The notes under the pieces: generated by a model
What the model was told of the DNA's origin: nothing
The model's database searches: none
The model's input: only the letters and a program-made list of their open reading frames with translations
Position numbers and translations under genes: made by a program
NCBI GenBank assembly: GCA_937902425.1
Contig: CALFNB010000498.1
Location: 1 to 36,994, forward strand
From: an uncultured Acetobacteraceae bacterium
GTDB taxonomy: Bacteria > Pseudomonadota > Alphaproteobacteria > Acetobacterales > Acetobacteraceae
Reading direction: 5' to 3'
Length of the DNA: 36,994 nucleotides
Shown: positions 34,029-34,146 of the stretch, one piece after another
How positions within the stretch are numbered: the first letter of the stretch is position 1
Layout of the letters: each line of letters opens with the position of its first letter

Positions 34029-34109
34029 ATGCTCACGACCGTGCCCCTCGCCACCTCTCGATTTTGGTACCGCTGGTATGCACCGGCGGCCAGGGACCTA
34101 CGTTCGTAG
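34029..34109 (+). CDS. Leader peptide MLTTVPLATSRFWYRWYAPAARDLRS (26 aa) of an aromatic amino acid attenuator
   Basis: Short ORF with Phe-Trp-Tyr-Arg-Trp-Tyr at codons 12-17, followed by an intrinsic terminator and class II DAHP synthase. Confidence 0.85.
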   Translation: MLTTVPLATSRFWYRWYAPAARDLRS

Positions 34110-34139
34110 CAAAACCCAAAGCCGCCAGTTCAGGGCGGC
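34070..34139 (+). promoter_or_regulatory. Transcription attenuator: alternative 1:2, 2:3 and 3:4 RNA pairings
   Basis: Segment 1 CCGCTGGT (34070-34077) pairs with segment 2 ACCGGCGG (34082-34089); GGCGGC (34085-34090) can instead pair with segment 3 GCCGCC (34121-34126); segment 3 pairs with segment 4 GGCGGC (34134-34139). Confidence 0.8.
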
Positions 34140-34146
34140 TTTTTTT
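34118..34146 (+). terminator. Intrinsic terminator of the attenuator
   Basis: AAAGCCGCC-agttcag-GGCGGCTTT followed by continuous T run (34140-34146). Confidence 0.9.

Follow-up and report, generated by a model that had tools for sequence, protein, structure and literature searches.

Attenuators of aromatic amino acid genes

The alternative 1:2, 2:3 and 3:4 pairings of four RNA segments form the logic of the trpL attenuator, an alphaproteobacterial example of which is rnTrpL of Sinorhizobium meliloti, where the RNA starts at the ATG of the trpL leader ORF such that this ORF is leaderless (PMC7298713). These leaders carry Trp codons only and stand ahead of trpE(G). Beyond tryptophan, the Phe leader of pheA and pheST (Rfam RF01859) combines aromatic codons with the layout of an attenuator. 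Two described systems precede a DAHP synthase gene. In Corynebacterium glutamicum the aroR leader, with its Phe-Tyr-Phe run, lies before aroF, which it controls by ribosome stalling, and it is described as responding to Phe and not to Tyr (Neshat et al. 2014, via PMC11802643; PMC4046766). In Acholeplasma the uORFC-13-1 motif, known from 24 sequences, is a predicted Phe uORF with an intrinsic terminator before aroF (PMC8632094).

Within a window of 36,994 nucleotides, by which is meant the whole stretch of DNA that was analysed, we find an element which is very probably a ribosome-mediated transcription attenuator for aromatic amino acid supply. It shares the four-segment logic of trpL and rnTrpL, the aromatic-codon leader peptide and DAHP synthase gene of the aroR-aroF system and the Phe codon(s), intrinsic terminator and DAHP synthase gene of uORFC-13-1. 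It nonetheless differs from each. C. glutamicum is an actinobacterium, likened here by description, and no Trp codon is reported in its control run; for uORFC-13-1 only Phe is named, and the phylum is a different one (PMC8632094). The Phe leader has other codons and other target genes, and the window scores below its gathering score (20.2 bits, E = 0.35, gathering score 55). Indeed, the Rfam search which the initial annotation of this DNA had suggested gave no match in the window at the curated cut-offs, and the attenuator family is absent from Rfam: no match to Trp_leader (RF00513) is among those listed with E of 1 or less, and RcsR1, which we take to be the rhizobial trp attenuator RNA, reaches 21.1 bits (E = 0.03) against a cut-off of 60. 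In other words, the element works like a trp attenuator and lies outside the curated Trp and Phe leader families. The mechanism is a known one, and the family of aromatic DAHP synthase attenuators appears to be undescribed, a literature search having found no description of this combination of aromatic leader and DAHP synthase gene. The abstract of a survey of proteobacterial attenuators by Vitreschak et al. in 2004 reportedly names none for DAHP synthase among the alphaproteobacteria.

The leader ORF and the RNA segments

The sequence and its comparison with relatives show the elements of the attenuator (Table 1) and how far they are conserved, as well as its promoter, the switch geometry and the constant neighbouring genes. 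Codons 12 to 17 of the leader are Phe-Trp-Tyr-Arg-Trp-Tyr. The initial annotation had proposed this ORF with its run of aromatic codons, four pairing segments and a tract of seven T, and every one of its coordinates agrees with the sequence; the terminator stem is longer than it had supposed, with 9 bp at 34118-34142 in a terminator scan, followed by T7. The folding that it had called for places the region 34029-34150 at -48.1 kcal/mol (z = -3.0), a value which no dinucleotide shuffle equals.

Table 1. Positions of the attenuator, its RNA segments and the genes behind it in the window
Feature	Position	Strand	Details
Predicted promoter	33994-34022	+	-35 TTGCCT 33994-33999, 17-nt spacer, -10 TAACAA 34017-34022
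Leader peptide ORF	34029-34109	+	26 codons, MLTTVPLATSRFWYRWYAPAARDLRS-stop; ATG 34029-34031, TAG 34107-34109
Control codons Phe12-Trp13-Tyr14	34062-34070	+	Assigned by simulated stalling
Segment 1	34062-34077	+	Strict core CCGCTGGT 34070-34077; most homologues pair further 5' over the Phe-Trp codons
Segment 2	34082-34090	+	ACCGGCGGC; common to the 1:2 and 2:3 helices; ACCGGCGG is 34082-34089
Segment 3	34118-34126	+	AAAGCCGCC; common to antiterminator and terminator; GCCGCC is 34121-34126
Segment 4 and T tract, intrinsic terminator	34134-34146	+	GGCGGCTTT; GGCGGC 34134-34139, T7 34140-34146
Shine-Dalgarno GAAGGAG of the microprotein ORF	34203-34209	+	From sequence; a purine-rich site here in most homologues
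Microprotein ORF	34219-34362	+	47 aa; between terminator and DAHP synthase; its TGA overlaps the DAHP synthase ATG (ATGA)
Shine-Dalgarno GAGGAG of DAHP synthase	34346-34351	+	From sequence
Class II DAHP synthase	34359-35762	+	467 aa; TIGR01358 716.9 bits, cut-off 614.7; PF01474

Conservation was followed in an alignment (A3) of 74 sequences, collected by a pattern which fixes the RFWYR codons and by a loose terminator filter, such that the presence of these codons and of the terminator is partly by construction. Homologous leaders keep RFWYR[WRC][YH]-x-[PT]-A-[AV], and most stop directly after Pro-Ala-Ala; in the window and its nearest relatives this usual stop is lost and the leader runs on to a later one (TAG 34107 in the window). 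Free codon positions were not fixed by the collecting pattern. CGA for Arg and TTT for Phe are nevertheless found in 74 of the 74 leaders, against the preference of genes in the window for CGC or CGG and TTC, an invariance for which the extended 1:2 helix, where GAUUUUGG pairs with CCUAGGAUC, can account. Standard pairs occupy 94.7% of the 1:2 cells, 98.4% of the 2:3 core cells and 98.9% of the 3:4 cells, in each case far over slid controls. The initial annotation had named the loss of the aromatic codons or of the alternative pairings among homologues as evidence against its proposal; over the 74 homologues both are kept, all three pairings included, and so is the terminator. A double compensatory change is seen at one 3:4 pair only, AU to GC in 7 sequences, and other variation is mostly one-sided, as is in part to be expected where every base can pair in two ways and is coding besides. 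Covariation is therefore modest evidence for the attenuator, the case for which rests on conservation and geometry. One natural nonsense variant (G012, locus L331) has Tyr14 changed from TAC to TAA, which stops the leader after Arg-Phe-Trp; it still has the RNA, the terminator, the microprotein and a luciferase-like gene.

Predicted promoter and probable leaderless start

The promoter and the second small ORF, discussed below, are features absent from the initial annotation. The -10 box of the window ends 6 nt ahead of the leader ATG, and the arrangement TTGC-N16-19-TANNNN, followed after 5-8 nt by an in-frame start, recurs at 63 of the 77 homologous loci (shuffles: mean 0.39, maximum 3). Shine-Dalgarno-like 4-mers precede the leader start in 2 of the 77. 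A scan for E. coli consensus promoters gave no match. With a spacing of ~6 nt, the transcript therefore probably begins at or beside the ATG, and the leader ORF is probably translated from a leaderless RNA.

A leaderless start, as predicted here, is reported for rnTrpL (PMC7298713), and the terminated leader RNA, of about 118 nt, might like rnTrpL be a small RNA which acts in trans, besides or instead of any control in cis. We consider this unlikely. There is one copy per genome, orphan loci exist and the free codon positions are invariant, all of which would suit a small RNA, as would the weak likeness to the rhizobial RcsR1; the score of the latter, however, falls well short of its cut-off, and the extended 1:2 pairing also accounts for the invariant codons.

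Proposed switching by a stalled ribosome

Attenuation in cis, the preferred reading, was examined by folding with a masked ribosome, which covers 13 nt of RNA beyond the first nucleotide of the codon in the A site, the nascent RNA reaching to just beyond segment 3. For the window, the probability of the 2:3 helix is 1.00 with the ribosome at Phe12, Trp13, Tyr14 or Arg15; it falls to 0.65 at Trp16, and from Tyr17 as far as the stop it is 0.00. Over the 74 sequences, with the same edge of 13 nt, it is 0.97-0.98 at codons 12-14, 0.04 at codon 17 and 0.00 at the stop, where sequences with shuffled 3' parts give 0.09-0.14 at codons 12-14. Varying the footprint edge between 11 and 15 nt leaves the outcome unchanged, apart from Trp16, which over this range shifts from antiterminating to not, and Tyr17, which is intermediate at 11 nt. 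As in a trp attenuator, therefore, stalling at the control codons frees segment 2 in these folds and a ribosome at the stop codon covers it. These folds reproduce the stalling logic put forward in the initial annotation, both for the window and for every one of the 74 sequences in the alignment; of the aromatic codons that it had invoked, only 12-14 are well placed. On this model, Phe, Trp and Tyr would have one codon each in the zone where stalling can antiterminate, with Trp16 marginal and Tyr17 too near segment 2. Arg11 and Arg15 also lie inside this zone, and aromatic specificity is therefore not proven.

Acetobacteraceae and Dongia use FWY as control codons; in four other families these are FYD, YFT, YFG and FYG (leaders RFYD, RYFT, RYFG and RFYG). 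DAHP synthase lies directly behind the leader in the FYD and YFT families and the microprotein in the YFG and FYG families. Phe and Tyr are hence among the control codons of every family examined, and Trp is not in all. Phe and Tyr thus persist among the control codons of the families in which Trp13 is missing, which supports the reading as an attenuator for aromatic supply. Their persistence also bears on a Trp-only attenuator like trpL, in which the Phe and Tyr codons would be incidental. The Trp residues at codons 13 and 16 and the trpGDC operon found downstream in several genera could be taken in that sense, but Trp16 is at the edge of the stalling window, the four families that replace Trp13 retain Phe and Tyr within positions 12-14, and DAHP synthase supplies all three amino acids; such a restriction to Trp is quite improbable.

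In the full-length RNA at equilibrium, the terminator is favoured even with a stalled ribosome (probability of 3:4 at least 0.92). Necessarily, therefore, antitermination must be kinetic. With no ribosome, 1:2 is not clearly ahead of 2:3 across the family, the mean probability of 2:3 being 0.56.

From these features we infer how the attenuator for aromatic supply would operate. Transcription would start at or beside the leader ATG, and a ribosome would translate the leader straight from the 5' end. Were Phe-, Trp- or Tyr-tRNA scarce, the ribosome would pause at codons 12-14 and cover segment 1, such that segment 2 could capture segment 3 ahead of the synthesis of segment 4; with 2:3 formed, the polymerase would read into the microprotein ORF and on into the gene for DAHP synthase, which overlaps it. 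When the aromatic tRNAs are charged, the ribosome would instead pass codon 17 to the stop and cover segment 2; 3:4 could then pair and, together with the T tract, end transcription. Acetobacteraceae and other alphaproteobacteria would by this means possess a simple sensor of aromatic supply at the entry of the shikimate pathway, which may read Phe, Trp and Tyr jointly in three adjacent codons and not via separate repressors.

Distribution of the attenuator

The window probably comes from Rhodopila, a genus of Acetobacteraceae. A whole-genome search for the leader pattern CGNTTYTGGTAYCGNNGNTAY finds it in 26 of 33 genomes of this genus, and the reversed control pattern in 0; without any filtering, 28 of the 28 places so found have both the leader codons and a terminator. 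A covariance model (R1), with which the family can be searched for, gives one strong copy in 30 of the 33. In each of G014 and G028 the element appears twice, in near-identical copies at contig ends, probably because assembly has split one locus. Outside the genus, the attenuator is present in at least a dozen further Acetobacteraceae genera (about 15 were examined in detail), in four Dongia genomes, which belong to another family, and in four more alphaproteobacterial families (f126, f57, f50 and f149). These matches place it in six or more families of Alphaproteobacteria. As GC-rich DNA abounds in small ORFs and terminators, a chance ORF ahead of an unrelated intrinsic terminator might have been imagined; retention in 30 of 33 genomes and in five other families, together with the conserved promoter spacing, the invariant codons and the gene linkage, refutes it, and we give it next to no credence.

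An apparent refutation of the attenuator itself came from the DAHP synthase orthologues of relatives, where the first 600 bases upstream held the leader at 2 of 29 loci. The low count arises because in most of those genomes the attenuator lies elsewhere, before another paralogue of DAHP synthase or some different gene, or with nothing behind it. DAHP synthase loci outside Acetobacteraceae, taken from their contigs, showed no such leader. Several matches to CGATTTTGGTACCG in the family scan (L186, L187 and L190-L192) were dropped as chance coding matches, and weak class-wide matches to the covariance model (E of 1e-4 and worse) were mostly ordinary terminators.

Genes behind the attenuator

The initial annotation had placed a class II DAHP synthase downstream of the attenuator. 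The assignment is borne out by the equivalog model TIGR01358 (Table 1); the gene layout stands in part, in that DAHP synthase does lie behind the attenuator and the first gene after the terminator is the microprotein ORF. No further DAHP synthase was found in the assembly, which is 89% complete: this gene is its single class II match, and its sole PF00793 match is the KDO8P synthase KdsA. It follows that the attenuator would set the entry to the pathway for all three amino acids. Upstream of the attenuator a TauD-type dioxygenase gene ends at 33951. Behind DAHP synthase, at 35746-36921, is a nicotinate phosphoribosyltransferase-like gene, which also follows DAHP synthase in L208, L226 and L259, metagenome lineages with the leader and no microprotein ORF; from its occurrence in lineages without the microprotein, this pairing is old.

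The genes behind the attenuator were scored at 86 loci, not all of them independent. Leaving aside the 12 at contig ends, each has class II DAHP synthase, the microprotein or both behind the attenuator. DAHP synthase is the first recognised gene at 37 loci, 18 with the microprotein and 19 without; at others it is a luciferase-like monooxygenase (9), TrpG (5), P450 (4) or another gene (2), and at 17, about 20%, no recognised gene follows the microprotein. From the last group, with the monooxygenase and P450 loci, DAHP synthase is evidently not always the target. Where pathway genes do follow, they are those of aromatic biosynthesis (DAHP synthase at 37 loci, trpG(DC) at 5), which again supports the attenuator reading. 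Within the genus (L031-L058), what follows the single attenuator unit is one or other of a pair of class II DAHP synthase paralogues (about 63% identity), a luciferase-like monooxygenase, a P450 or nothing, and the unit or its neighbours have therefore moved repeatedly.

The DFDV microprotein

In many relatives it is the unannotated microprotein ORF, and not DAHP synthase, that is the constant neighbour, often alone behind the attenuator or with trpGDC. Its N-terminus reads [FY]DFDV[ILV][TSG], with DFDV invariant over 17 aligned proteins, and its codons vary synonymously among homologues. The conserved part is the first 10-15 residues; the tail is variable and often proline-rich, and the shortest example has 17 aa. 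The protein is short and proline-rich, and probably disordered. A Pfam search of it gave no match, a profile search brought up about 585 related proteins with no named function among the matches listed, one of which is from Dongia rigui, and the family appears to be undescribed. At one locus (L182, 446-1243) the DFDV motif occurs as a fusion with a solute-binding-protein domain (PF13531).

The conserved output of the attenuator could well be this microprotein, if at somewhat less than an even chance: induced on aromatic starvation, it would be a trans-acting factor of the pathway, its target perhaps the activity of DAHP synthase or that of anthranilate synthase, and the gene behind it would be a variable passenger. 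All 37 readable loci without DAHP synthase as the next recognised gene have the microprotein ORF, and every readable locus without the microprotein has DAHP synthase. In the genus, every clear match to the microprotein (about 24 genomes) adjoins the 3' side of the attenuator, with none elsewhere, and the three genomes without the attenuator are also without the microprotein. The invariance of DFDV despite synonymous codon changes points the same way, as does Dongia, where no same-strand gene lies behind the microprotein. Against this are the 19 loci with leader and DAHP synthase and no microprotein, and the confinement of conservation to so few residues in a protein that can be so short, such that the ORF might be one for coupling.

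Tentatively, and with rather more doubt than conviction, the attenuator and the microprotein may be joined as one conserved regulatory unit, a leaderless Phe/Trp/Tyr-sensing switch for a protein of 17-70 aa, the DFDV N-terminus of which would act in trans on aromatic metabolism, with DAHP synthase, trpGDC and other genes joining by lineage. The attenuator would in any event tie to aromatic starvation a microprotein family without named function or Pfam match. The role of the microprotein is the most interesting question raised by the locus, and a directly testable one, since Dongia carries it by itself behind the switch.

Other aromatic leaders

Weak matches to the covariance model in family f68 (L352, L354 at 1501-1572 and, on the reverse strand, L357) have a different aromatic leader, NAWYFTPLT-stop or GWYFTSPK-stop, followed by a terminator and then a GNAT acetyltransferase gene. 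In family f95 (L362 at 1501-1731 and L350 on the reverse strand), leaders ending in NYWYFTLLT or PWYFTLHT, also with a terminator, precede the gene of a small protein with a weak resemblance to the tyrosyl-tRNA synthetase C-terminal domain (PF22421, E = 7e-4).
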